Of a stretch of DNA of 25,780 bases, positions 880-21,685 are shown piece after piece. The position numbers and the translations under genes are program-made. Numbering within the stretch: position 1 is the first letter of the stretch; the number at the start of each line of letters is the position of its first letter. Where the stretch lies: positions 1 to 25,780 of the IMG/VR virus record IMGVR_UViG_3300047562_003877; one strand, given 5' to 3'. The notes below the pieces were generated by a model. That model was not told where the DNA came from, ran no database searches, and was given only the letters and a program-made list of their open reading frames with translations. The stretch comes from a virus.

Positions 880-3025
880 AACAGTATGGGATTCTCCATA
901 TATAGTTAGAAGAGACCCCAGATATAAAAGCTCCGCTCTCAGTATTATTTTTGATCTTAATGCTGAGAATAATAAAAGATCAGAATATTCTTTAGGGAGA
1001 TTTGAGCTCGGCAGCAATTCTTTAATTAAACAAGCCCCGCCGCCAAAAACATATGTTTCAAAGAAGTTGGCAAATGGAAAATATGGAATAATTTCTTCTG
1101 GAGATTTAAATCAAAATGAAACCGAAAATTGTAAATCTTTTCAATTAGTATGCTCAGATCCTGGTCATACCGATACTTCTTGCCCGAAAAATAAATGTAT
1201 AATTGGTGAAGTAGAATATAAGGAAGACCTCGAATTGTGGGAATTTCAGAGCTCTAATACTTTTTCTGTTGCAGCAGAGCCTCAACAGCAGAAACCTTTG
1301 AAATATTTTACAAAAGAGAGATTAAAAAGTAATCCAAGCTCTTATTATTCTGTAGATGATTTAATTATCGATAAACCAGCTACAAAGTCCTGTAGAATTA
1401 TAAATTCTTTCTCTATAGATTCCAGAAATTCTATTAAAATAAGTGTAGCTGCCGCGGCATTTATTAAAAAGTGCTCATATAGGGAAGCTTGTATAGAAAG
1501 TTCTCTATTAGAAGATGCTGATGAGAGTATTCGTTTATCAATAGTATCCCATATATATTCTTTAGGAGAAGTTTGGAGAGAATTTATTTTTTCACAGATT
1601 GAACCTGATTTTTATATAAATTTATCGGCCGCCCAGCTTTTATCTAATTATTTAGATATATTAGATGAACACAAAGAATCTATTTTAATCGTAGACTCAA
1701 GAAGATATAGTCAATCGAAACTTTTAGATTTTGACAATCCTCACGCAGATCCAATATACTCTCGTCTACCTGAAAATTATAGAAATAATGATGAGGAGAT
1801 TATTATTCTAGACGAAATAAGTGATCGAGTTAGATTGGATAATGATCTTGAAATTGGAACCGTTGTAACCATACGAAATTACAGCGAAGCATATAAATAC
1901 CTCCCAAGAGAGATAAAAGATCCTCAAGATATACTTAGATTTGGTGGCGATCCTTTAACAAAAGACCCTTTTTATACTCCAAAAGATATAAACTCCTGGA
2001 TATCTTATAAAGAAGATATCAAACCAAATATAGCACAATGGATTAGTTCTGGCGCTGCTTCTATATTATCTGATTCTAAAATTGCCGCCGATTTATTTTA
2101 CCATAAAACACTAGACCCTAATACTTGTAGTTCCGAGGCTCTAGACTGGATTTCACATCTTTTAGGATTTACTGGGGGGGTCTGGAATTCATCTTGGACA
2201 GATAAAATAAAAAGAGCGGTTCTTTTAAATGCATTTGGGTGGTCTGAAGATACTCTTATAGACCCCGACTCTGGATATAAAACTCTTAAGGGCGAGATAG
2301 TCTCTAATTTTCCTTTCAATTCTGAAAATTCAAATTGGATTGATGGAGAGGATAATTGGGGGCGGGTTAAATGGATAGATGAACAACCTTCAGAATATAT
2401 AAAACAGACAGATCCTTACACAGGACTAGAATTTTATGAGACCCAAGAAATTTCTAAAATTCTAATAAATAAAGAAAAATGGTTGGGGTTATTTCAAACA
2501 AAAGGAAATCTGATCAACTTAATCTGGTGGTTAAATGTTTTTGATATAAAAGATTCTAATCTAAATGAAGAGATTGTCGATAATGAACAAACTATAATTT
2601 ATACAGTTCCCCCGCTCAGACCAGGAACTTTTACTCTTGATAATAACGGCAAAAAAATTAAATCAACTCGTACTCTTTTAAATCAAAGAATTACTAGAAT
2701 AAATAATAACTTAGATGCTTCTAAGATTAATAAAATTTCCTCCCCCATCGTATTAAGTCCAGCACAAGCTGCAACTTCCGCCGATGTAGATTCATTGGAA
2801 AATCCTTTACTTGCGGGGATAACTCCACTTCAGGAAGAGATTTATACAGTAATACCTCTGAGCTTTAAATACTCAAGAGTTGACGAAGTATGGAATCAAC
2901 TATCTTATGTTGTAGAAAATTGGATGCCTGTCTATACGAATATTAAAGTTCAATATCAGTATATGGCGGCTGATTATACCGCTGCGGATGATATTTTCTT
3001 CGATCCATCAACTCCTGAAACCTGA
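854..3025 (+). CDS. Tail protein I-like (P2 gpI family) baseplate protein
   Basis: The gene codes for about 723 residues, much longer than P2 gpI (roughly 180). The family-like part is near residues 425-570: an LDWISHLLGF segment, a Trp, a basic helix, then a second segment with TKGNLINLIWWLNVF. This matches the 'LDWLA..LG....W......R' and 'RGT...L...L' pattern of phage tail protein domains. It is a presumed baseplate component acting next to the J-like wedge encoded just upstream. Residues 94-116 contain four Cys and one His (C94, C101, H106, C111, C116), a possible metal site or disulfide cluster. The overlap with the upstream gene implies coupled translation. Possible starts are TTG 851, ATG 854 and ATG 863. 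I chose 854 because it is the first ATG, but no Shine-Dalgarno sequence decides it. The N-terminal 400 residues are unassigned. Confidence 0.7.
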   Translation: MSSMKSLFKTVWDSPYIVRRDPRYKSSALSIIFDLNAENNKRSEYSLGRFELGSNSLIKQAPPPKTYVSKKLANGKYGIISSGDLNQNETENCKSFQLVCSDPGHTDTSCPKNKCIIGEVEYKEDLELWEFQSSNTFSVAAEPQQQKPLKYFTKERLKSNPSSYYSVDDLIIDKPATKSCRIINSFSIDSRNSIKISVAAAAFIKKCSYREACIESSLLEDADESIRLSIVSHIYSLGEVWREFIFSQIEPDFYINLSAAQLLSNYLDILDEHKESILIVDSRRYSQSKLLDFDNPHADPIYSRLPENYRNNDEEIIILDEISDRVRLDNDLEIGTVVTIRNYSEAYKYLPREIKDPQDILRFGGDPLTKDPFYTPKDINSWISYKEDIKPNIAQWISSGAASILSDSKIAADLFYHKTLDPNTCSSEALDWISHLLGFTGGVWNSSWTDKIKRAVLLNAFGWSEDTLIDPDSGYKTLKGEIVSNFPFNSENSNWIDGEDNWGRVKWIDEQPSEYIKQTDPYTGLEFYETQEISKILINKEKWLGLFQTKGNLINLIWWLNVFDIKDSNLNEEIVDNEQTIIYTVPPLRPGTFTLDNNGKKIKSTRTLLNQRITRINNNLDASKINKISSPIVLSPAQAATSADVDSLENPLLAGITPLQEEIYTVIPLSFKYSRVDEVWNQLSYVVENWMPVYTNIKVQYQYMAADYTAADDIFFDPSTPET

Positions 3026-3073
3026 ATTTATAGATAATTTCGATTATATTGATTGCCCTAGAGTATAAAAGCT

Positions 3074-3092
3074 GTTTAAAGTTGCTATATAC
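3074..3092 (+). promoter_or_regulatory. Putative phage promoter, GTTTAAAGT-N4-TATA type
   Basis: GTTTAAAGT (3074-3082), four bases, then ATATAC (a TATATA is also present one base to the left). This lies in the only sizeable gap of the left block (3026-3106), about 14 bases before the ATG of the gpV-like gene. The same arrangement precedes three minus-strand genes. If TATA acts as a -10 element, the 5' leader would be under about 12 bases. Confidence 0.6.
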
Positions 3093-3106
3093 TATCTAAA
3101 CTTTGA

Positions 3107-4186
3107 ATGCAAACCTCTAATCTAGTAGAGCTGGTGGCCTCACTGAGTAAAGAGGTTGCTCAGTTAAGAAAAGAAATTCGATATGGAAGTCAGATTTATC
3201 CACAAAAAGCAATAATTCATAGCGTTTCTGACCCTTATAACCTAGGGAGAGTTAAAGTAATTTTCCCGACTACGCACCCCTCTGCTGTATCTGATTGGTT
3301 ATATACACTAGGATTTAGTAGTGGAAGAGTACCTGAACAATATATTGGCACATCTGGAATTGCTATATTTTTAGATGGAAACGAGGCTGATGGAATTTTC
3401 ATTGGAGTTATAGGAGACCAACCAGAATCTTCGGCTATACAGGGAAATCCTTTATCTATTCCAATTATTGATACAAGAGTAAATAAATCAATACCAGAGT
3501 GTAATAAAGCTTCACAAGGTCAGATGATCCTGTTTACAAATACAATATCAGTTGATCTAAAGGTATGTATAAGAAGAAATACGATTGATAAAAAAGATCA
3601 AGATTCTCTTGAAAAAGAATTGTACTCCTGGAAGAGTATTACAAACTCTTTAGAATTAGGTATAGGAGAATACGGTGAATCTAATACAGATAATACTCTT
3701 TTAGGAGATACTAGAACAAACAAAAGATGGTCTGAATGTACGCCCGCACTCGAGGGAGAAAGAAGATTATATTCTGAAGATCGGTCACTTCCACAAGCGG
3801 AGTATATTTGCAGAAAACAGCCAGGAGAAAAATATGTGTGGATGCCGGGCAATAGTCTGCCTATTTATGCTATGAGAAATCTGCCGCCGTGCACAGAATC
3901 TTTTATGGGAGCTATGGCGCTTTTAGATGACGGATTAAATTCTGAACTTATTGTATGCGCGCGCTATCAATCAAAAAATAACTTAAAGTGGGTTAAATTC
4001 AAAAGAGATCCAGTTCGTCCTGCTGCAAAAACAACTATATCTACAGAGGATATTATAGAAAATAAAGACTCATCTATTGCTCCGGAGGCTGTTATTACTA
4101 GTCTCTCAGAGATAGATTTTACTGGCAATATCCCAACAATTATGAACATAATAAATACGATCAAGGAGGCTGTAGGTGGAAATTAA
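3107..4186 (+). CDS. Baseplate spike/assembly protein with gp5-type OB fold (gpV-like)
   Basis: The gene codes for 359 residues. Residues 1-26 are a predicted helix. Residues 30-105 carry the OB-fold signature of T4 gp5 and P2 gpV (SDPYNLGRVKVIFP at 41-54, then a Trp and a GDQPE-type end). The protein should be the central spike or hub-spike adaptor of the contractile tail. It does not continue into an obvious repetitive beta-helix. Instead there are three copies of a module with paired Cys and a following Trp: C132/C154/W175, C211/C235/W245 and C262/C284/W295, with Cys-Cys spacings of 22, 24 and 22. Similar short modules occur in tail fibres, so the spike may be decorated. A promoter-like motif lies just upstream and there is no clear Shine-Dalgarno sequence. 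The 3' end overlaps the next gene by 11 bases. Confidence 0.75.
   Translation: MQTSNLVELVASLSKEVAQLRKEIRYGSQIYPQKAIIHSVSDPYNLGRVKVIFPTTHPSAVSDWLYTLGFSSGRVPEQYIGTSGIAIFLDGNEADGIFIGVIGDQPESSAIQGNPLSIPIIDTRVNKSIPECNKASQGQMILFTNTISVDLKVCIRRNTIDKKDQDSLEKELYSWKSITNSLELGIGEYGESNTDNTLLGDTRTNKRWSECTPALEGERRLYSEDRSLPQAEYICRKQPGEKYVWMPGNSLPIYAMRNLPPCTESFMGAMALLDDGLNSELIVCARYQSKNNLKWVKFKRDPVRPAAKTTISTEDIIENKDSSIAPEAVITSLSEIDFTGNIPTIMNIINTIKEAVGGN
4163..4169 (+). promoter_or_regulatory. Strong Shine-Dalgarno site for the GTG-started gene at 4176
   Basis: AAGGAGG is followed six bases later by GTG (4176). It lies inside the end of the gpV-like gene. It decides the GTG start and is the only near-perfect Shine-Dalgarno sequence I noticed before a gene in the window. 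Confidence 0.8.
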
Positions 4187-6053
4187 TAAGGAATCTATTA
4201 TTAATCTTCTTGAGCGAAGAGACTTAGATTTGCTTCCTCCTGAGTCGAGGTCTCTACTGATTGGTTTATTCTCAGATGGGCTACAGGGGCTGATGGATGC
4301 GGCGGTTGTAAATAATATTGATAAGATTCCTGCTCCTATTCGAGAGATTGTAGCACCATATCTGTTAGAGATTGATTGGAATAATGTTCCAAGTCAAATA
4401 GCTTCCGCGTTTAATTCCCTTTTTAGAGAAGACGGCCCAGGATTAATGGGATCTATAAAAAATCTATTAGGTTCAATTGATCTTTCTAATTTTAATATAG
4501 GTGAGTTTTTTCAAAATTTTAATTTAAATCTAGGTGGAATAAATCTTAATTTTAACGGAATAAGAGATGTAATCGGAATGATTTCTTCTGGTAAATTGGG
4601 AGGAATTTCTCAAGTTCTTAGCGACTTTGGTGGTATAGATTTATTAGGATTAATCCCCGGGTCTGGAATTATCAAAACAGCTTCAACAATTTTTGGGGTT
4701 CTTTTTAAAGAAGGAGATATTTTATCTAATTTATTTGGCGGCGGCGGACTGGGTATCACAAGTATTCTTGGAGCCTTGGGAGTAAGTGATACTATAACTG
4801 GTTTAATTTCTCCGATATTAGGTATTTTCGGTCTTGGTGGTTTAAAATCTTCTTGTCCTTGTGACCCCAAATGTAGAAAAACTGATCATTTAGTATCTGA
4901 AAATGGAATAAGACTTCTAGAAGAAGAAAAATGTGAAACAGTAATTTCAAACTCGTCTTCGAGTTATTATTCTGGTGGCGGCTCTGGTAGACCTGACCCT
5001 TCTTTTACTAATGGAAACCTTTTATCTAATGCATTTGGTCTTGTTACGACTCAGCTGGGTGCTGGTTTAATCCCTCAGAATGTTCTAAATCTTACGGCGG
5101 CAATACTTGAACTACCCCGCTTGGGGTCACTTGGAGCCCATTCTCAATCTGCTCAATTTGCAGATTGGCCAGATTTTATGAATGAGTATTCTTATTCAAT
5201 GAAAACAATAGAACATGGGTTTAAAATAACCGACAATAACCTCACGGGTGTAGAAAAAATTCTTCGAGTTTTCCTTGATGGGCAGTTTTTTGATTCTGCC
5301 TTTGAACAAAAAAGAGACGATCAAGTAATTGAGACTCTTTCTGATACCGCTAATGCTGTAAAAGAATTATATACTATGGTAAAGATTCTTGATAGAACAA
5401 AGAGAGGATCTTCCGGAGTTTATAAAGCTCCTGCTGTAGCAGTTAAAAAAATGATTAAATCTCATACAAAATTAATTAATTTTAGAGCCGCAAATTGGGC
5501 TAAGCACCTTAAAAAAATTAAAGATTTTCTTGAATTAGGATTATCTCTATGGAAAGAACTTCAACCTGGAAAATCTTACGACTCTCAACAAGAAAAAGAA
5601 CCCGGATCCTCTGAGAACTCAGGCGTAGATACTCCGTTTAATTTAGAAGAGATGAATAATGACACCTCAAGATTTAATACAGAATATTATAAAGCTATGT
5701 CCGATATGGTACATACCGATAATGATGCAGAGATTAATGACATTTTTGAAAAAATAGGTTTAAAGGATAATGGGGAGTCCGAAGAAAAATTATCCAAATT
5801 CAGGAAGAATTACGAGAATACACTTAGAAGATTAACTCAAGAAAGAATTTCTGAACAAACAGGTATACCCGCTAATCGAGATCCCTCTATGAAAGGGTAC
5901 ACACCGGTTTCTTCTGATTCAAGAAGACAATCTATATCTGCTCAAGACCTCCAAAGGCTTAGCGAAGAAACTGGATTAAATGATTTTAATACCCTAGTTA
6001 AAACTTTATTGGATGAACAGGCAGCAGCTGAACGAAGAAAAGAAAACTGTTGA
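4176..6053 (+). CDS. Unknown glycine-rich virion-type protein, 625 aa
   Basis: I do not recognise a family. It starts at GTG behind a strong Shine-Dalgarno sequence and overlaps the spike gene. Residues ~85-225 are rich in Gly, Leu, Ile, Asn and Phe, with alternating hydrophobic Gly-rich segments that could pack as a multilayer structure or as membrane-active helices. A Cys cluster (CPCDPKC) follows near residue 230, then a Ser/Gly-rich linker. The C-terminal half (from ~residue 300) is mostly charged helices with likely coiled coil. Its place between the spike and terminase genes suggests a tail or baseplate component. A tape-measure-like role is conceivable, but 625 residues is short for a myovirus and the long Gly-rich core is atypical. 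Function is left open. Confidence 0.6.
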   Translation: MEINKESIINLLERRDLDLLPPESRSLLIGLFSDGLQGLMDAAVVNNIDKIPAPIREIVAPYLLEIDWNNVPSQIASAFNSLFREDGPGLMGSIKNLLGSIDLSNFNIGEFFQNFNLNLGGINLNFNGIRDVIGMISSGKLGGISQVLSDFGGIDLLGLIPGSGIIKTASTIFGVLFKEGDILSNLFGGGGLGITSILGALGVSDTITGLISPILGIFGLGGLKSSCPCDPKCRKTDHLVSENGIRLLEEEKCETVISNSSSSYYSGGGSGRPDPSFTNGNLLSNAFGLVTTQLGAGLIPQNVLNLTAAILELPRLGSLGAHSQSAQFADWPDFMNEYSYSMKTIEHGFKITDNNLTGVEKILRVFLDGQFFDSAFEQKRDDQVIETLSDTANAVKELYTMVKILDRTKRGSSGVYKAPAVAVKKMIKSHTKLINFRAANWAKHLKKIKDFLELGLSLWKELQPGKSYDSQQEKEPGSSENSGVDTPFNLEEMNNDTSRFNTEYYKAMSDMVHTDNDAEINDIFEKIGLKDNGESEEKLSKFRKNYENTLRRLTQERISEQTGIPANRDPSMKGYTPVSSDSRRQSISAQDLQRLSEETGLNDFNTLVKTLLDEQAAAERRKENC

Positions 6054-7674
6054 GATGATGTCAAAGAGATATAAATCTCTTAATGCTGAAGAACGAAGAG
6101 AACTTCTTCGTTTAAAATGTCGTACCGATTTTATTACCTATGCAAGATTTATTACAGAAAACGAGTTTAAACCTTTTAAAGTTCATAAACTTCTATGTGA
6201 CTTTATTCAAAAAATTGCAGATGGAGACCCTGACTACACTAGAACCGTCGTTAGTTTACCTCCCCGTACTGGTAAATCACTACTGGTAAGTCGAATCTTA
6301 CCTTCTTGGCAGATAGGAAGAAACCCTAAGGCTCAATTCATTATGAGCTCATATGCTCTAAACCTGAGTACAGAAAACTCCAGAGCCGTTCTTGATTATG
6401 TAACTTCTGAGAAATTTATATGGATTTTCCCAGAGTGTATAATTGAAAGAAAAAATTGTAATCTTACTGCTATTCGTACAAACAAGGGAGGATTAATTAA
6501 AACGGCATCGGCTGGAGGTAACGTAACTGGATTTGGGTTTGGTAGTATTGAAGAAGACGATTTGCCCGGCATTGGATTGCTGGATGACTTGCTGCCGGAT
6601 GGAAACTCGATGACAGTTATGGACAGCACTTTTAATTGGGTACAAACTCAGTTTTTAACTCGAGCTCTACCGAACAATGCAATTATCTCCATGGGAACTA
6701 GATTTCATCACGATGATGTTACGGGCAGATTAGTTGCGGCGGCTTCGGACATCTGGAAAGTTTTAAATGTAAAGGCTATCTGTGATGACGAAGAAAATGA
6801 TCCTCTTGGTCGAAAACTAGGTGAGTCTCATTGGCCGGAATTCTTCTCTGAGGTGGCATTAAATTTGATCCGAAGAAATATTGGTGAGAGAGACTTTACT
6901 GCACTATATCAGGGTTCTCCAACTGTAGAAACTGGATCTATTTTTAAAGATTATTGGTTGGGTTATTTTTCGGATCTAAGAGAAAGATATTCATATAAAT
7001 TCGCCACTATTGATACCGCCTATCAAGAAAAAGATTCTAAGGGGGATTATTCTTGTATTTGTATTTGGGGATTTGAACGAGCAGAACAACGTTTATATTT
7101 ATTAGATGTAGTCTTAGAGCGCCTAGATTTTCCAAATCTACAAAAGGTAGTCACCAAGGTGGTAGAAGAATGGAAACTGAGAGCGATATATATTGAAGGG
7201 AGGAGCAGTGGTCAGCCTCTTATCCAAACTCTAAGACGCTTTATGAGAATTAGTATAAAAGAACTCAATCCAAATAAAGATAAAGTTCTTCGAGCAAACT
7301 CAGTTGCTCCAATTGTAGCCGCCGGAGTTGTATATGTAAATGAAAATATAAAAGATTTTGATGAGCGGGTTAAAGAGCTAATGAATTTTCCCTATATCAA
7401 GAATGATGATTTTGTTGATGCTTTTGTGTATGGAATAGTTGTTGCCCGCGATGAACTTGGTGTGAAAATTATTGATCCAGATGGAACTCCCACTCTAGCG
7501 CAAATACAGGATGAGTATGGCGTTGCAGGATCAAGAAGAATGCAAACAATCAACGAAATTGAAGATTATAATAAGGTCATTGGACATAAAATCAAAGAAA
7601 TCCCAGTAAAAACAAGACCTAAAATTAAACTTAGCGGCACAGAAAAACATGCATCAAGACTCAGATTTAGATAG
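6013..7674 (+). CDS. Terminase large subunit
   Basis: ATPase-nuclease motor that packages DNA into the prohead. The ATPase half shows Walker A LPPRTGKS (residues 82-89), a Walker B-like GLLDD (188-192) and a coupling motif SMGTRFHHDD (226-235). The nuclease half shows the acidic triad of RNase-H-like terminases: D334 in ATIDTAY, E395 in IYIEGRSSGQ, and D466/D469 in NDDFVDA. The length (553) is normal. The ATG at 6013 gives a 41-base overlap with the upstream gene. ATGs at 6055 and 6058, just after that gene's stop, are alternative starts, and none has a clear Shine-Dalgarno sequence. It lies among tail genes rather than beside a portal gene. No small subunit is visible in the window. Confidence 0.93.
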   Translation: MNRQQLNEEKKTVEMMSKRYKSLNAEERRELLRLKCRTDFITYARFITENEFKPFKVHKLLCDFIQKIADGDPDYTRTVVSLPPRTGKSLLVSRILPSWQIGRNPKAQFIMSSYALNLSTENSRAVLDYVTSEKFIWIFPECIIERKNCNLTAIRTNKGGLIKTASAGGNVTGFGFGSIEEDDLPGIGLLDDLLPDGNSMTVMDSTFNWVQTQFLTRALPNNAIISMGTRFHHDDVTGRLVAAASDIWKVLNVKAICDDEENDPLGRKLGESHWPEFFSEVALNLIRRNIGERDFTALYQGSPTVETGSIFKDYWLGYFSDLRERYSYKFATIDTAYQEKDSKGDYSCICIWGFERAEQRLYLLDVVLERLDFPNLQKVVTKVVEEWKLRAIYIEGRSSGQPLIQTLRRFMRISIKELNPNKDKVLRANSVAPIVAAGVVYVNENIKDFDERVKELMNFPYIKNDDFVDAFVYGIVVARDELGVKIIDPDGTPTLAQIQDEYGVAGSRRMQTINEIEDYNKVIGHKIKEIPVKTRPKIKLSGTEKHASRLRFR

Positions 7675-8741: not shown

Positions 8742-9570
8742 AAAAGAAACAGTTTATATTGATGGCGTAGAATATAATAAAAAATCTTTCGAGGAATATT
8801 GGAGATTATTATCTGCCCAAAGAATCGGCACACGATTTAGCGGTAAAGACCATCGATTTCTTCAACAAGCAGCCTCTCGTAACGGAGCTTGGGAAAAGGT
8901 AATGGCGCGAGGGCCAAACTATTACTTTAAACCCGTTTTGAAGAAATTTCACGGTCGCAAAGTAAGAGGAATTGCACTAATATCTCCTAATTCTTCTAGG
9001 GAGATTTGGATCGGTAAAGCACGAGTAATAGATGCCGTATTTCCTAAACCTCAAACTCCCGAAAGTATTCATAAAGAAAATAAAAAACTTGCTCTACAAG
9101 CTCTGCGACAAATAATTGAACCGCAAATGTCTAGCTTTAGACGCTCGATTAAAAGACAAATCAGAAATAAAAACGGCCCCAAAATTCGATGCGCCATTAC
9201 TAAAGAAAGTCTTGATCATGGAGAGTTTCATATTGATCATGCCTATCCCTTTAAAAACATCGTAGAAGATTGGTGTAGAGAAAGTCGAGTGGATTTAGAA
9301 TCTTTAGAAGTAGTGTGTAGAGGGACTAAATGTTATCTGAAAAATACAAATCTAGCCGAATCATTTTTTGATTACCATTTAATGGTTGCTAAACTCCAAC
9401 CGACAACAGCGGCGGCGAATCTTCGTAAGGGCGCAACTTATGGAGCTCCGGTTGATGTTTCAGTTAAAAGTTTCGTTCAAGAAGATCATTCCACATCTTT
9501 AGAGCCTCAGCCTCTACAAGTTTCTGTTGATGAGCCCGAATCAAATACGGTTGATATTCAGCAGGTTTAG
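8734..9570 (+). CDS. DUF3223-like plus HNH-like domain protein
   Basis: The gene codes for 278 residues. Residues ~30-103 resemble the DUF3223 (DCL-type) fold: a conserved SGKD..FL segment, a W-E-K helix, then F-x-x-x-R and a Ser/acid-rich strand ending in VIDAVF. Residues 150-220 contain C153, the H166-I-D-H169 motif followed by P-F, C195 and C200, N204 and a final F-F-D-Y-H215, which fits an HNH-like metal-dependent nuclease or a structural zinc fold. The nuclease reading is an inference from the motif. The last ~35 residues are acidic, low in complexity, and coded antisense to the end of the convergent gene at 9464-9997. The start overlaps the sigma gene, so the two are probably co-translated. 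Confidence 0.62.
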   Translation: MPKKETVYIDGVEYNKKSFEEYWRLLSAQRIGTRFSGKDHRFLQQAASRNGAWEKVMARGPNYYFKPVLKKFHGRKVRGIALISPNSSREIWIGKARVIDAVFPKPQTPESIHKENKKLALQALRQIIEPQMSSFRRSIKRQIRNKNGPKIRCAITKESLDHGEFHIDHAYPFKNIVEDWCRESRVDLESLEVVCRGTKCYLKNTNLAESFFDYHLMVAKLQPTTAAANLRKGATYGAPVDVSVKSFVQEDHSTSLEPQPLQVSVDEPESNTVDIQQV

Positions 9571-9997
9571 CTAAGGTTTTATTAATAAAGGCTAAGCTTG
9601 GACTTATTTGAGAGGTAGACATTTTCCCCCCAAGTATTTTTTTATCTCTGGGAGGTAATGTTTTTAAAATAGTCTCAGTGGAGATTGCATTTGGAACTTT
9701 TTGCTCAAATTGGGTTTCAAAAGTTTCAAGAGTATCGGTAAATCGATATAGTATATCTTGTACTTGCTTTGGAGGTATATCTATCTCCAATTCCATCAAT
9801 GCTAGGGATTTTATATACGATTTTGAGTTTTCTATATACTCATCTGCTACCGTTTTGGTCACATGGGCCAAAAAATATCTTCGTGCTCGTTCTTTTAGTT
9901 CCAAGATAGCCTGTTCTTTATTTGCTATAGCCTCAATATCTTTTTGTTTATTTCTAAGGCTATTGATTAATAGTCCAGCAAATGCTTTAATTAACAT
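9464..9997 (-). CDS. Unknown helical protein, 177 aa
   Basis: I do not recognise a family. The protein is almost entirely helical and charged, with likely coiled coil at residues 10-50 and a Pro-rich segment near residue 75. Its ATG overlaps the stop of the large hub gene (ATGTTAA, 9991-9997), which implies translational coupling and membership of the minus-strand structural operon. It is the last gene of that block. Its 3' 107 bases are antisense to the end of the DUF3223/HNH-like gene. A small tail-associated or chaperone-like role is possible but unsupported by motifs. Confidence 0.65.
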   Translation of the reverse strand: MLIKAFAGLLINSLRNKQKDIEAIANKEQAILELKERARRYFLAHVTKTVADEYIENSKSYIKSLALMELEIDIPPKQVQDILYRFTDTLETFETQFEQKVPNAISTETILKTLPPRDKKILGGKMSTSQISPSLAFINKTLAKPAEYQPYLIRAHQQKLVEAEALKMWNDLLERNF

Positions 9998-12900
9998 GAT
10001 AAAGCTGATACAAATCTTTTAGCAATCTCCTGAGCTGCGGCGTTGCGAATTTCATCAGATTTAGGAGTAGGATTTTCCCCTTTTTGTTCAACAATAATTT
10101 CTGTTCCTGCAACCTCAAGAATACTGACATTATATTTTTGAGTAGCATCTATTTTACCGGGTCTCCATTTATAATTAAAAGCTCCAAATTCTTTGGATAG
10201 AGCGAGATCATAGATTGTAATTTCTTTAAGTGGAGGTATGATTCCAGAGCGGCCGTTATAAATATCCAAATGTATTTCAACTGCATAAAATCCCTCCGAT
10301 TTTCTATCCTTCAACCACTGGAGAACCTGTTGTAGGGACATTTTATCAGATTTGGATGGGTCTAAATAAGAAACCTCATATCCCGCATTTCTCAGTGCTG
10401 ATGCTATAGCAAGAGTCACTATCGGGGTATAGTCTCTTTCACCTGGGGCTCCCGCCTTTTTAAGATTTCTATGTCCAGCTGTTAATGCTATTTTCTTGAC
10501 TCTCTCGGTGGTTGATACTCTATTACTCCAATCATTTTTATTTGATTTTTTGGAAATATATCTCCATCCCCCTGAAGGAGGAGGAAGGCACCCTACGAAT
10601 TCAGAGACACTTGGGCCTGTTCTTGTACATTTACCAAATTTACTGTAAAATTCTTGAATTGATTGATCGGGAGTCCATCTTCTAGCGGTAGAATCTCTGC
10701 CAAACCAGTGTCCTCCATATTTATTTCCTGCTTCTCCCCACCAACTTGCATCGCCATTGGAATAAGATTTTAAATTTACAAAGTTCGGAGAAGCTAAAAT
10801 TTCTTTATTTATACCCAATTGTATAAGAGCTTCATGATCAAACGCTAACTGAATACCATCATAAACTATAGAGGCCTTACTTGAAAAGTCTTCATCTATT
10901 CTGCCATTTCCTACTGGTTCAAATTGTACTCCATTTCCAGCATATACTATATCTTTTAGTTTACTAGACCCATTACTACCATAGTTTGCTCCTAATTTCT
11001 CAGTATATAATATTCTATTAAAAATGGCTCTAGCTACTAGAGCATGACCAATTTTTCCGTCTTTTGCTGTGGCCTCTGCGGCAACAATCTGAAATAATAT
11101 TCTTTGATCTTCATCACTCAGACTTAATTTTCCTGGCTCTAATTGGCAAGGCTGAATAGAAGATACGTTTGCCGAACTCAAGATTGTGGGGTCTCCTGTA
11201 CCATTTAACATCATTTCTTCGGTAACCGCGCATCGAGTATGACAACTCGGTTTTCCGTTATCATTCCAGCATAAATCTCCATAAGCTCTGATATAATCTA
11301 CATACTTACTATATTTCCCTCGAATACTTAGGTCATAAGAATAACTCTCCCAGCTTGGAACGATTTGTGAATTATTTATTCCAAAAACACTCGAGGCATT
11401 TATTTTAACTCGCAAATCCCCCTGGGCCCAATTGAATTGAACAGTTTTGATTAACCAATTCTTAAAATATTCCGGCAACCAAACTCCTGGGTCAATACCA
11501 ATCTGCCGATCAGATTTAAGCCATGCTTGATACAGCCCTACAAAACTCAGAATTGTAAATTTTGGTAAAATCCTAAGGGCTCTTGGCACTCCTTTAAATT
11601 CTGTGTCAATATTGAATCCTGTTCCTCCCCCAGGAGCGTTTTGCCCTGTGTTTGAATTTGATTGTCCACCTGGACTTATTGAAACTCCATCTAGATTTAT
11701 TCTTACATTATCACCCGGCTGATGTAAGTTTGTGTCTGATCCACGCGTAACTCGATATTCTCTGCCCACACTCGTTGTATTTTGATGAGTTACATCTGGA
11801 GAAAGAGGAGTATTATCAAATCTAATTTCAAAATGAAGGTGGGGGCCGGTGCTCCGCCCAGAGTTACCACTATATCCTAAAAGAGTATCGTGACCGACAA
11901 TTTGCCCTACAGAAACTAATGGCGGAGCGCTTAGGTGGGCGTAACGTGTAGAATATTTACTATCTCCATGCTTGATTTCAAGCCAATGACCATATCCTTC
12001 ACCGCCGTCGTTTCTAATGAGAGACACCACGCCCGGACCCGCGGCATATATCTCAGTTCCATTTGGAGCACTAATATCAATACCCGCGTGCATTCTCCCC
12101 CGTCTTTGGCCTTTATGACTAGTAATTAACCCACTCATGGGCCATTTAAATTTTAATAAAGCTGTAGACCGCGGCAAAGAGGGGGCTGTAGAATCTTCTT
12201 CTTCGCCTTCTCCGGTTCCTCTCTCCAAATAATTTATTGTCGAGGTTGATATATTTGCATTTCTTAAATTTTTTGCTACGGTTGTTAGAACATCCTGAGC
12301 CTTTTTAGAGGATATTTTTGCTCGATTTCCTGCTACTCCTGCGTATAGACTTGAACCGGCAGGACGCTTTTTGTCTGGGTCTTCCATTGCGGTTGTTTTG
12401 GGGTCGGTTCCGCTTGCTCTTAATTGTGGGCCGGGGGCCTCAGCATAAGTCAACGAAAAAGAAGCAAATTCTCTTGCTAAACCCTGAGCCGCTTCTTCTT
12501 TTGTTGCACCGCTTGCCCCCACTAGATAAGCTCCAATCTCTGGTCTTTTTACAAAAAGAAGATACTTTAATAAACTATCCTGGGTAGACCTAGAGAATTT
12601 TGTACTAAGAGGCAATCCGCTATATTGAATAGCTCTTCTTAAAGTATCTCCAATAAATTGAGGATATCCTACAGCACCGATCTCTTTTAGACCATTTACA
12701 GTTCCAGTTTGATTTTGGCGTTTACGTATTTCCTCAAGACTAGTACTTGCTGCAGATTTGCCAAATTGAGCACTAAACGTAGAAGCACTGCCGCCTCGCC
12801 TTACTCCCTCTGAGTCTCTTCTGACAACATTTATAGATTCCGTACCCCCTTCACCAGAAGATATAAGATTCTGTAGAGGTTTAAGAGCACTATTCGGAAT

Positions 12901-14700
12901 TTTTTTGAGTTGCTCGGGAGTTATATCTCCACTTGGAACAAATTTAGATTCAGCTGCTCCCTCAAGAGGAGCTGTTTCGTTCGTGGGTACTCCACTTTCT
13001 GGGGCGTTAGGTACTCCTGGGTCATAAGTTTCTGGAGCACTCATGGTAAACGCAACGAGCGGGTCTATAAAAATTTTACTGTTTTGTAATATAACATAGT
13101 AAGATAAATTCTGTTTCTTAGACTCGACAGTTTTACCGAGAACGCTTCCCATTTTTATTTCATATCCTTTTTCTATTCCTGAATCAGCTTCAAAGAGGCT
13201 CAGATCCGCAAAAATATTTAATTTACTAACTAAATTTGAAGTCATGCCTCGAAGATATAGAACAAAATCAGTTCTAGCAGATATGGATTTTCCATTACCT
13301 TCGGCAAGATCGTTTACTTCTGTAATTCTTCCAGATAATATAATACTAGCGGCTTTTTCTTCAAATTCTCCAATATAACCTGGATTTACTTTTTGATATG
13401 ACTTTTTTTCTAATAATTTATCAGTTTTTTTCTCTAAGATTAATACTTTTTCGTTGTAGCTCGTAAAGTATTTATCTCGTGTGGACTTAAACCCCTCCCA
13501 AGTTCCTCGAATAGGATTTGAAGTTTGAGAATCTTTAAACTCTATATCTAGAATTTTATTACTATATTTAACAGATTTAATTTCATGTATATTTTTTTCT
13601 TTTGGTAAGATTACTTCCCATACTGAATCCTTTTGATCTAAACTTGGCAGATAATCCGATCCACCATCTGCTCTGCTTGTGCCATCTACATTTTGTCCAT
13701 ATTCTAGATTTCTTCCGACCATACTGGAATCAATAACGGCCGAAACCTTAAACCCCTCGTAAAGAGGTTTTCCTAAATAAAAGACTGAGCATCCCGGCCA
13801 AGTATCTGCACGTGTACAAACATGAAGAGTATTGTACATATCCTTAGTAGGCAGACTTAGATAGTTTCCTCCTCTTTTATTTTTAACAATATCATCTAAA
13901 AGTTGTTTAATAGTTATATTGCTTTTTAAAACTCTTCTATCAAGTCTGTCAGGATTATCATAGTCTGCTACGCAAAATTCCATATTAAAATCATTTCTGG
14001 CAGCGAGCTCCGCTAGAGCTTTCTCCACTTCCAGCTCATTATCAATCGACACATTAACAAGTCGATCTTGAAAAGTGATTCCGAAATTGCCTTGCCCATT
14101 TAAAGTAACGGAAGGATACTCTTTACCGTGTCCTGCACTCGACCCGCTCAACCGAAATAAATAATCTGTTCCAAAGGTATATCCATTATATGCTTCATAC
14201 CATAGACTGATCATTATCATTGCCGGCTGATCATATTGCCCCCTAGTATTTGATATTTGAGCATTAGCATTATTAGTAGGAATCCAATTTGCAATATCAA
14301 TTAGTTCATAATCCCAACAATCATTTTGCTCAGGGGTTTCTCCCTCATTACATTTTCTTCTTAGAATGCCATCTCTTCCATCCGCTTTTCCACTTTGATA
14401 AGAACGATTTCCAATAGCTGCGCCAGCGACATCCAAGAGAGCTGGCCATGTAACTCCAGTGAAAAACGGGTCGGTTATTGTTACATTACAAGTATTACCC
14501 GAGCCGGTAAAACTCATAATACCATTAGCACTTTGAGTAGTCTCTGAGTTCATGGACGCATTATTGGGATCCCAACCAAGACTAATACTAAGATCTTGAA
14601 TATATTTTTCGTCAAAAACCACCCCTAGATTGGTGTTGAAAAACTTATACAAAACCTTGGCTCTGCATCTATATAACCGATTGCCGTTTAATGATACCAT
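9991..14700 (-). CDS. Giant baseplate-hub-like protein with four peptidoglycan-hydrolase-like domains
   Basis: The gene codes for 1569 residues. Residues 1-560 are beta-rich and hub-like (gp27-type, inferred). Residues ~603-760 resemble lambda-lysozyme/GH104-type domains: ISSGEGGTESIN with candidate catalytic E617, GYPQFIGDTL, FSRSTQD, and a LAREFAS end. Residues ~850-970 are an M23 (LytM) endopeptidase with H871/D875 in HAGID and H954/H956 in GPHLHFE. Residues ~1035-1140 look like a returning hub segment (ALRILPKFTILSF, GDLRVKI). Residues ~1195-1345 match SleB/CwlJ cell-wall hydrolases (IVAAEA with E1209, NRI, VQFEP, GGHWFGR). Residues ~1402-1567 match Amidase_3 (H1410 in TAGHR, E1421, H1477 in EIHLD, E1538). 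It probably digests the cell wall during injection. It is translationally coupled to the next gene and lies five bases after the previous one. Confidence 0.85.
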   Translation of the reverse strand: MVSLNGNRLYRCRAKVLYKFFNTNLGVVFDEKYIQDLSISLGWDPNNASMNSETTQSANGIMSFTGSGNTCNVTITDPFFTGVTWPALLDVAGAAIGNRSYQSGKADGRDGILRRKCNEGETPEQNDCWDYELIDIANWIPTNNANAQISNTRGQYDQPAMIMISLWYEAYNGYTFGTDYLFRLSGSSAGHGKEYPSVTLNGQGNFGITFQDRLVNVSIDNELEVEKALAELAARNDFNMEFCVADYDNPDRLDRRVLKSNITIKQLLDDIVKNKRGGNYLSLPTKDMYNTLHVCTRADTWPGCSVFYLGKPLYEGFKVSAVIDSSMVGRNLEYGQNVDGTSRADGGSDYLPSLDQKDSVWEVILPKEKNIHEIKSVKYSNKILDIEFKDSQTSNPIRGTWEGFKSTRDKYFTSYNEKVLILEKKTDKLLEKKSYQKVNPGYIGEFEEKAASIILSGRITEVNDLAEGNGKSISARTDFVLYLRGMTSNLVSKLNIFADLSLFEADSGIEKGYEIKMGSVLGKTVESKKQNLSYYVILQNSKIFIDPLVAFTMSAPETYDPGVPNAPESGVPTNETAPLEGAAESKFVPSGDITPEQLKKIPNSALKPLQNLISSGEGGTESINVVRRDSEGVRRGGSASTFSAQFGKSAASTSLEEIRKRQNQTGTVNGLKEIGAVGYPQFIGDTLRRAIQYSGLPLSTKFSRSTQDSLLKYLLFVKRPEIGAYLVGASGATKEEAAQGLAREFASFSLTYAEAPGPQLRASGTDPKTTAMEDPDKKRPAGSSLYAGVAGNRAKISSKKAQDVLTTVAKNLRNANISTSTINYLERGTGEGEEEDSTAPSLPRSTALLKFKWPMSGLITSHKGQRRGRMHAGIDISAPNGTEIYAAGPGVVSLIRNDGGEGYGHWLEIKHGDSKYSTRYAHLSAPPLVSVGQIVGHDTLLGYSGNSGRSTGPHLHFEIRFDNTPLSPDVTHQNTTSVGREYRVTRGSDTNLHQPGDNVRINLDGVSISPGGQSNSNTGQNAPGGGTGFNIDTEFKGVPRALRILPKFTILSFVGLYQAWLKSDRQIGIDPGVWLPEYFKNWLIKTVQFNWAQGDLRVKINASSVFGINNSQIVPSWESYSYDLSIRGKYSKYVDYIRAYGDLCWNDNGKPSCHTRCAVTEEMMLNGTGDPTILSSANVSSIQPCQLEPGKLSLSDEDQRILFQIVAAEATAKDGKIGHALVARAIFNRILYTEKLGANYGSNGSSKLKDIVYAGNGVQFEPVGNGRIDEDFSSKASIVYDGIQLAFDHEALIQLGINKEILASPNFVNLKSYSNGDASWWGEAGNKYGGHWFGRDSTARRWTPDQSIQEFYSKFGKCTRTGPSVSEFVGCLPPPSGGWRYISKKSNKNDWSNRVSTTERVKKIALTAGHRNLKKAGAPGERDYTPIVTLAIASALRNAGYEVSYLDPSKSDKMSLQQVLQWLKDRKSEGFYAVEIHLDIYNGRSGIIPPLKEITIYDLALSKEFGAFNYKWRPGKIDATQKYNVSILEVAGTEIIVEQKGENPTPKSDEIRNAAAQEIAKRFVSALSC

Positions 14701-14705
14701 CTAAT

Positions 14706-15407
14706 TTAGACAATACTATCTACAATTGCTAACGCGGGAGTATCTAATCCATTAACAGATGGGTCTTCTAGAGTTACAATCTGACCAACATAGAAGCCGG
14801 AGCCCGAAGTCAGAGTAGTAAACTCCCCTAATTCAACAGAGCCTCCAACGATATCTAATTCTACTGTTGCAACCTCACTGTCATCTACTTCTGTACTAGT
14901 TAACTCAAGTGCAGTTTCAACCCCATTCGTATATCCAGAGCCACCATCGAACACTGTAAAGGTTACAATGCCACCGAACGCTGTAGATTGTACGGGGACA
15001 ATAGGAACTGTTTCTCCAATGATTCTAGAGATAGTTTCAGAGAGATTATAGGTTGCTACTTGAAAATGATAATCTTCTTCTCCGGTAATACCCACATAGC
15101 GGGCAACGTTTAAAACTCCGCTACTAAGAGCCAATTTATCCGCTTCGGGAATAGAGGCATCTTCAGACAGAGCATTGCACACTAATTCTAGAGCTTCATA
15201 TGCATACTGCTTTGTACTAAATCCCATAGAAGGCCCGCAGTTATTATATTTAGTGATAAGTGATAAGAGTTTGGCTTCTTGAGATGAGTCTAGAATTTCT
15301 ATAACTTGCACGTTAGTTCTAAGGTCTTCTAGGAACTCGGCAAAAAATTCTTTATAAGAAAATGTGATTCCAATAGACCGTTTTAGTTTTTTATTTAATA
15401 CAACCAT
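14706..15407 (-). CDS. Virion structural protein with GSGY repeats
   Basis: The gene codes for 233 residues. Residues 1-135 are helical and of unknown family. Residues ~140-233 are beta-rich with repeated units holding GGSGYTNG and GSGFYVG, each followed by a hydrophobic strand. Such repeats are common in phage tail, fibre and baseplate proteins. It is the first gene behind a promoter-like motif at 15424-15442 and lies directly before the giant hub gene, so it is probably a tail or fibre-attachment component. No enzyme motif is seen. Confidence 0.65.
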   Translation of the reverse strand: MVVLNKKLKRSIGITFSYKEFFAEFLEDLRTNVQVIEILDSSQEAKLLSLITKYNNCGPSMGFSTKQYAYEALELVCNALSEDASIPEADKLALSSGVLNVARYVGITGEEDYHFQVATYNLSETISRIIGETVPIVPVQSTAFGGIVTFTVFDGGSGYTNGVETALELTSTEVDDSEVATVELDIVGGSVELGEFTTLTSGSGFYVGQIVTLEDPSVNGLDTPALAIVDSIV

Positions 15408-20787: not shown

Positions 20788-21685
20788 GCTAGTACGCTAT
20801 AGCTTCTTTATATAAGTTGATAAGCGCTTCACTTCTCAATCGGAATTTTGTTCCGTGATTGCTGTGTTTCATTTTGGGTCATTGCCTTTTCCCTTGTAAC
20901 TGATGTTGGATTAGAAATACGATTTTCTGCCATTTCACAATATTCAGGTGAAATATCTATGCCAACATATTGCCTACCAAGATTACTTGCCGCCAATGCA
21001 GTAGTACCAGAACCCATAAAAGGGTCTAAAACAATATCAGCGTTAGTTGATGATATGATTCTCTCAATTAACTCAACAGGAAATGGTGCAGGGTGTTTAT
21101 TTTTACTTTCTTGACCAAATTCCCATATATCACCATGCGCATTTGCTTTTTTTGCAAGTTTGAATTTTGGTTTTGCTATTAAGTAAATAACCTCGTATGT
21201 AGGGAGAAAGTATCCTGGATTAAAATTTATTCCCCCTTTCCTTCGCCAAATTATAATTTGACGAACCGGAAAACCAGAAACAATATCATTTCTATCTTGT
21301 AGCAATCCTGCTTGAACCCTCCATTTATGGTTATAAAAAATAGCTCCATTTTCAGGGATTATTCGCAACATTTCTGTCAAACATGCCCGTTGCCATTCGA
21401 CATATTCATCGTGCGGCATATTATCGTTGTAATGTGAGTAGCCATTTATTAAGGCAGCATTTGACCACTTACCACCTCTACCGTCCTTCATACCGTTACC
21501 AGTAGAGTTTTTCAGGTTGTAGGGTGGTGAAGTTACGACCAGTTCAATACTGCCATCAGGAATTTGCTTCATTACATCCACTGTGTTGCCACAAATAAAC
21601 TTATTTAGAAAATCTAGGGGATATTTCAGTTTGTCGTTACTACCCATTTTGCCCTATTTCTATCGTAAGGTTTTCTTGCACATAA
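20721..21685 (-). mobile_element. Integron gene cassette (965 bp) carrying a DNA methyltransferase
   Basis: The boundaries follow from the G^TTRRRY rule. The 5' end is G^TTATGTGC (minus strand, G at 21686), and the 3' end is the G of the attC R' (20721). If circularised, the joined site GTTATGTGC is the exact nine-base reverse complement of the attC outer arm GCACATAAC. In true cassettes the 5' TTRRRY is part of the cassette's own attC, so this match is a strong internal check. Promoterless single-gene organisation is also typical. Confidence 0.8.
20829..21647 (-). CDS. DNA methyltransferase, beta-class N6-adenine/N4-cytosine
   Basis: The gene codes for 272 residues. The catalytic motif IV TSPPYNL (residues 39-45) comes before the SAM-binding motif I DPFMGSGTT (208-216), with VGIDISPEY after it. 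This order is that of the beta group. SPPY occurs in both N4-cytosine and N6-adenine enzymes, so the target base is undecided. Residues 46-150 hold the likely recognition region. No restriction endonuclease is nearby, so it is an orphan, probably shielding phage DNA from host restriction. The ATG has an AGGG (21655-21652) six bases upstream. Transcription could come from the duplicated fibre promoter at 21757-21775. The gene sits alone in an integron-like cassette, which suggests acquisition from a bacterial integron array. Confidence 0.93.
   Translation of the reverse strand: MGSNDKLKYPLDFLNKFICGNTVDVMKQIPDGSIELVVTSPPYNLKNSTGNGMKDGRGGKWSNAALINGYSHYNDNMPHDEYVEWQRACLTEMLRIIPENGAIFYNHKWRVQAGLLQDRNDIVSGFPVRQIIIWRRKGGINFNPGYFLPTYEVIYLIAKPKFKLAKKANAHGDIWEFGQESKNKHPAPFPVELIERIISSTNADIVLDPFMGSGTTALAASNLGRQYVGIDISPEYCEMAENRISNPTSVTREKAMTQNETQQSRNKIPIEK

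Follow-up and report, generated by a model that had tools for sequence, protein, structure and literature searches.

Why should a single protein of a phage tail carry four different domains that look able to cut the bacterial cell wall, and are all four what they seem to be? This question is raised by one long reading frame of the window, by which we mean the whole stretch of DNA analysed, a single metagenomic virus fragment with a record of 25.8 kb. A preliminary description made from the letters had read the frame as a hub protein bearing a lysozyme-like domain, an M23 endopeptidase, a SleB-type hydrolase and an amidase. The frame at 9991-14700 is present and intact: it starts with ATG and runs for 1569 codons without an internal stop, its N-terminus can be aligned with that of its relatives, and both of its flanking genes are syntenic. 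A direct search of IMG/VR for close relatives against which to check the frame returned none. The observation of a four-domain protein holds, and along its chain one meets hub, lysozyme-like, M23, hub, SleB and amidase in this order, with SleB and the amidase forming a C-terminal tail. The parts are as follows.

9991 to 14700, minus strand: predicted baseplate hub with four peptidoglycan-hydrolase-type domains, 1569 amino acids (single open frame; synteny with S-TIM5-like relatives)
13051 to 14700, minus strand: hub, N-terminal half, residues ~1-550 (family profile match 6-546)
12448 to 12885, minus strand: lysozyme-like domain, residues 606-751, with E617 (47 homologues, model core)
11797 to 12096, minus strand: M23 peptidase in the usual order, residues 869-968, with H871, D875, H922, H954 and H956 (PF01551)
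11230 to 11622, minus strand: hub, C-terminal half, residues 1027-1157 (38-46% identical to 13 relatives)
10684 to 11121, minus strand: SleB/CwlJ-type hydrolase, residues 1194-1339, with E1209 and H1331 (homologues, profile)
10111 to 10515, minus strand: Amidase_3-like domain, residues 1396-1530, with H1410, E1421, H1477 and E1529 (below the Pfam cut-off; invariant residues)

The relatives with which this protein can be compared are supplied by the placement of the virus, for which three further genes matter.

6013 to 7674, plus strand: terminase large subunit
9464 to 9997, minus strand: conserved neighbour downstream of the hub (weak homologue at the same place in four relatives, E 3e-7 to 2e-5)
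14706 to 15407, minus strand: conserved neighbour upstream of the hub (homologue upstream of the hub gene in each of the six relatives compared; a structural protein of the virion in S-TIM5)

The suspected link to cyanophages is borne out by the terminase, which is 63-64% identical to those of S-TIM5, S-TIM54, S-TIM61 and S-TIM66, all isolated on marine Synechococcus, the next best phage being at 32%; this kinship also suggests where the host of the window virus is to be sought. Homologues of the terminase, a sigma factor, PhoH, both flanks of the hub and other tail genes of the window are found around S-TIM5-type hubs. Terminase and synteny together thus place the virus in the S-TIM5 (Aurunvirus-like) group, and it would be a contractile-tailed cyanomyovirus. 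In both the terminase tree and the hub tree the window is a long branch (with a midpoint root only), and it appears to form a separate lineage within or beside that group. Elsewhere in the window, the overlapping frames at 3107-4186 and 4176-6053 correspond to one protein of about 1000 amino acids in S-TIM54 and several relatives, while S-TIM5 is split at another point, and a DNA methyltransferase gene (20829-21647) has the tail fibre gene on one side and that of PhoH on the other, a place where neither S-TIM5 nor S-TIM54 has it.

We compared about 50 distinct relatives, namely the S-TIM isolates and some 45 IMG/VR records, among which the few cut or broken records fit the common plan as far as they can be read. 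Two stretches of the window protein, residues ~1-550 and ~1030-1165, are conserved among them, the second being found in every relative whose record extends that far. The segment at 1035-1140, previously taken for the hub, does belong to it, but the hub is split and this segment is only its second half. Because both stretches are conserved hub, the lysozyme-like and M23 domains lie nested inside it. The fold was approached through an AlphaFold2 model made for one relative, L024, and not for the window protein (pLDDT 68, pTM 0.43). In Foldseek this model matches VgrG/Pvc8-type spikes, Mu gp44 (1wru), T4 gp27 (1k28_D) and the baseplates of phage E217 and cyanophage A-1(L), with E-values of 5e-7 to 7e-4 and probabilities of 0.8-1; these probabilities near 1 go with low overall TM-scores, which are to be expected because the query has several domains and modest confidence and the hub chains are much shorter. 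Through its homology to the modelled relative, the window protein is thus predicted to be a hub of the gp27/gp44/VgrG type. The records of S-TIM5 and S-TIM54 list their hub homologues as virion structural proteins, and a search for hub relatives in bacterial genomes found none. We also observed that window positions 13051-13410 (residues ~430-550) align with a degenerate M23-like barrel of the relatives, which has no catalytic residues, gives partial Pfam M23 matches and stands ahead of their insert. Two records have irregular hubs: L011 has an in-frame TAG (10143-10145) within the second hub half, after which the reading resumes in frame, and in L050 the hub is likewise broken, with N's in its sequence.

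How secure, then, are the four enzymes? Profile searches domain by domain uphold the four-enzyme reading unevenly, since M23 exceeds its Pfam cut-off, SleB and the amidase fall under theirs, and the lysozyme-like domain has no match in Pfam. The M23 is certain from its sequence: PF01551 matches with E 5.6e-27 and 94.2 bits against a cut-off of 28.7, many PDB chains match down to E 8e-19, and the H(x)nD, AHL and HxH residues follow in the usual order, with H922 to be added to the four residues (H871, D875, H954, H956) already named.

For the SleB-type domain, the isolated domain of the window reaches only E 0.01 and 16.9 bits with Hydrolase_2 (PF07486), under the cut-off of 27, but a homologue from phage S-H25 passes it with 30.9 bits. 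E1209, the residue originally proposed, is invariant in 19 sequences (the window and 18 aligned homologues from viral contigs), and a profile of the family run against all solved chains has as its top match the spore cortex-lytic enzyme SleB, 4f55 (E 3.9e-4), together with 4fet. Both the conserved glutamate and the structural kinship expected of a SleB/CwlJ enzyme are therefore found, and the assignment, which we draw from homologues with invariant active-site residues, agrees with the first reading.

The same kind of evidence argues for the amidase. Amidase_3 (PF01520) matches residues 1404-1485 with E 0.0072 when the full chain is searched and E 1.7e-4 when the fragment is searched alone, in which case the score of 22.1 bits is under the Pfam cut-off of 27, so that we label the domain Amidase_3-like only; every homologue tested was likewise under the cut-off, with a weaker match than the window or none, and the profile matched no solved structure. 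In an alignment of eight sequences, which includes hub relatives, Microcystis phage Ma-LMM01 and Synechococcus phage S-H9-1, residues H1410, E1421, H1477 and E1529 are invariant throughout. The putative zinc ligands H1410, E1421 and H1477 are in register with E. coli AmiA, AmiB and AmiC, a comparison that is weak. Three of the four residues first proposed thus stand; the fourth, E1538, lies outside the conserved motif and was rejected in favour of E1529 as the conserved glutamate.

Of the four, the lysozyme fold is the least secured, being predicted from homologues and from a model. E617, the residue first named, and the GEG motif around it are invariant in 47 aligned viral homologues (48 sequences with the window) at 28-45% identity, and some of these homologues are recorded as lysozyme or lysozyme-like. 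The core of the model has a pLDDT above 90, and in it a helix (29-43) ends at E617 and is followed by strands 48-54 and 60-67 in a beta hairpin, which is the placement of the glutamate seen in the lysozyme superfamily. A comparison with the PDB gave nothing significant (best E 1.8), and we call the domain lysozyme-like only. Among the predicted viral proteins of BFVD, a SAR endolysin transglycosylase is the top match that bears a functional name (E 1.3e-3), and several gp5-type proteins also match. The idea that the domain is a diverged Phage_lysozyme2 found no support and was rejected (probability 3%).

Seen among its relatives, the protein is peculiar in a way other than the one first proposed. 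That it is a hub-borne tail lysin with four different hydrolase-type domains holds good; the contrast with tail lysins having one or two domains does not survive within this lineage, where two or three hydrolases per hub are normal. In 29 relatives the order is hub, permuted M23, hub, Phage_lysozyme2, and in 13 others an amidase precedes the permuted M23; the Phage_lysozyme2 at their end is related to the lysozyme that phi29 carries in its tail enzyme gp13 (3csr, E 6.7e-14). The set of the window, with lysozyme-like and M23 inside and SleB and amidase at the end, is the sole case among the relatives judged. What is peculiar to the window is thus that it has four cutters, and that these are of a different make from the sets of its relatives. 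Since relatives on ordinary marine Synechococcus use two enzymes, four alone need not mean the unusually thick wall that, beside a broad host range, had been suggested as a possibility. The amidase shows at least six changes on a tree of the hub core (inserts removed) of 44 relatives, and therefore comes and goes; moreover, one amidase family occupies two sites, inside the hub in the relatives and C-terminal in the window. From this turnover and these two locations it follows that the hub stays fixed while the enzyme sets behave as parts that can be exchanged on it.

The usual inner occupant deserves a word of its own. In the M23 of the relatives the HxH motif stands ahead of HxGxD and LAHL, and these residues are nearly all conserved (in L024, H559/H561, H609/D613 and H669); the domain lies at L024:9609-10061 (residues ~540-690) and in the equivalent region of about 45 relatives. 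When an M23 profile was doubled end to end, all 25 sequences matched it continuously across the join, with a score about equal to the sum of the half scores, and the relatives' M23 profile matches the solved structure of a phage lysin in swapped order. The domain thus looks circularly permuted. It could instead be a composite of two M23-like domains, given the degenerate barrel just upstream. A literature search on circularly permuted M23 found no paper, and a review of the family contains no mention of circular permutation (PMC9662197). If true, the permutation would give a much-studied enzyme family an arrangement new to it.

Taken together, these results make it highly likely, in our opinion, that the window protein serves a phage of the S-TIM5 group as its central baseplate hub and carries four wall-cutting domains. 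A trimeric hub would sit at the tail tip, and contraction would drive it through the outer membrane; the four domains would then cut the peptidoglycan below the tail and open a hole for the tail tube. Judging from the known activities of the families, the glycan strand would be cut by the lysozyme-like and SleB-type domains, the peptide by M23 and the amide bond by the amidase.

The strongest rival accepts the hub and supposes that one or two of the domains, likeliest the lysozyme-like or the amidase-like one, are wall-binding modules that do not cut, which would leave effectively a two- or three-enzyme lysin. The weak formal matches of precisely these two domains speak for it, and degenerate, non-cutting M23-like folds are known (PMC9662197). 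We nevertheless hold it to be unlikely, for binding modules would not need active-site residues that are invariant over 48 (lysozyme-like), 19 (SleB) and 8 (amidase) sequences. That an assembly or sequencing error has fused the hub gene with an independent SleB-amidase gene is a concern with any single metagenomic fragment that has no close relative, the more so as SleB and amidase stand in separate reading frames in L070. We judge such an artefact improbable, because in the relatives, too, a C-terminal enzyme follows the hub in one chain from the same point, there is no internal stop, and the downstream neighbour is in its usual place. One might finally see in the protein an endolysin-like lysis enzyme that acts late in infection and does not belong to the tail, its domain types being common to endolysins; but the two halves of its hub are both related to baseplate hubs, the relatives are recorded as virion structural proteins and the gene adjoins tail genes, and we give this last idea hardly any credence.

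Returning to a hub with four active enzymes, we think it reasonably probable, with less assurance than for the hub itself, that hubs of the S-TIM5 type serve as a standing platform that offers enzymes two sockets, a nested and a C-terminal one, in which unrelated sets, up to four active enzymes in all, are exchanged, and whose usual inner occupant is a circularly permuted and active M23. A fixed scaffold with differing cutters would indicate that phages swap their entry tools freely. One hub with two attachment sites and differing sets would amount to a natural experiment on which activities are needed at entry and whether they depend on the host wall, and four different cutters in one chain would be a source of ready-made modules.

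How does this compare with known systems? Hydrolases of several kinds in the tail are common among these cyanophages, and four on one hub chain were found in no other case among the cyanophage proteins compared. In Microcystis phage Ma-LMM01, gp94 and gp95 are adjoining baseplate genes with a homologous amidase and an M23; these are two separate proteins, with no SleB seen. Proteins of the Kyanoviridae type (Syn33_015, S-H25 and the IMG/VR records L070 and L084) join a homologous SleB with Amidase_2 or M23 in one protein, and differ in having two hydrolases per protein and another scaffold. In L070 a separate amidase-like stretch (1816-2445) lies just upstream of the protein with SleB and M23 (2621-5209), which puts three of the window's four types in neighbouring frames. 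In other cyanophage proteins the lysozyme-like domain is joined with M23 or with an Amidase_5/CHAP-type domain; the latter pairing is found in the "late control gene D protein" of S-CAM7 (L056:5221-7134), a name that probably hides a tail lysin.

Beyond the cyanophages, phi29 gp13 (3csq) and the tail-associated lysin of phage NF5 (9m7n) resemble the window protein as tail-tip enzymes that pair a lysozyme with an M23, but they have two enzymes only, and their lysozyme belongs with the last domain of the relatives, being of another family than that of the window. We know of no split gp27-type hub around these enzymes. T4 gp5-gp27, Mu gp44 and VgrG have the hub fold in common with the window, and T4 gp5 also puts a lysozyme at the tail tip; they carry one lysozyme or none, and no enzyme pair nested within the hub chain. 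Finally, S-TIM5, S-TIM54, S-TIM61, S-TIM66 and the some 45 IMG/VR relatives are like the window in their split hub, in both insertion sites and in their gene neighbourhood, and differ from it in what these sites hold: the permuted M23 inside, joined in about a third of them by an Amidase_3-like domain, and Phage_lysozyme2 at the end.
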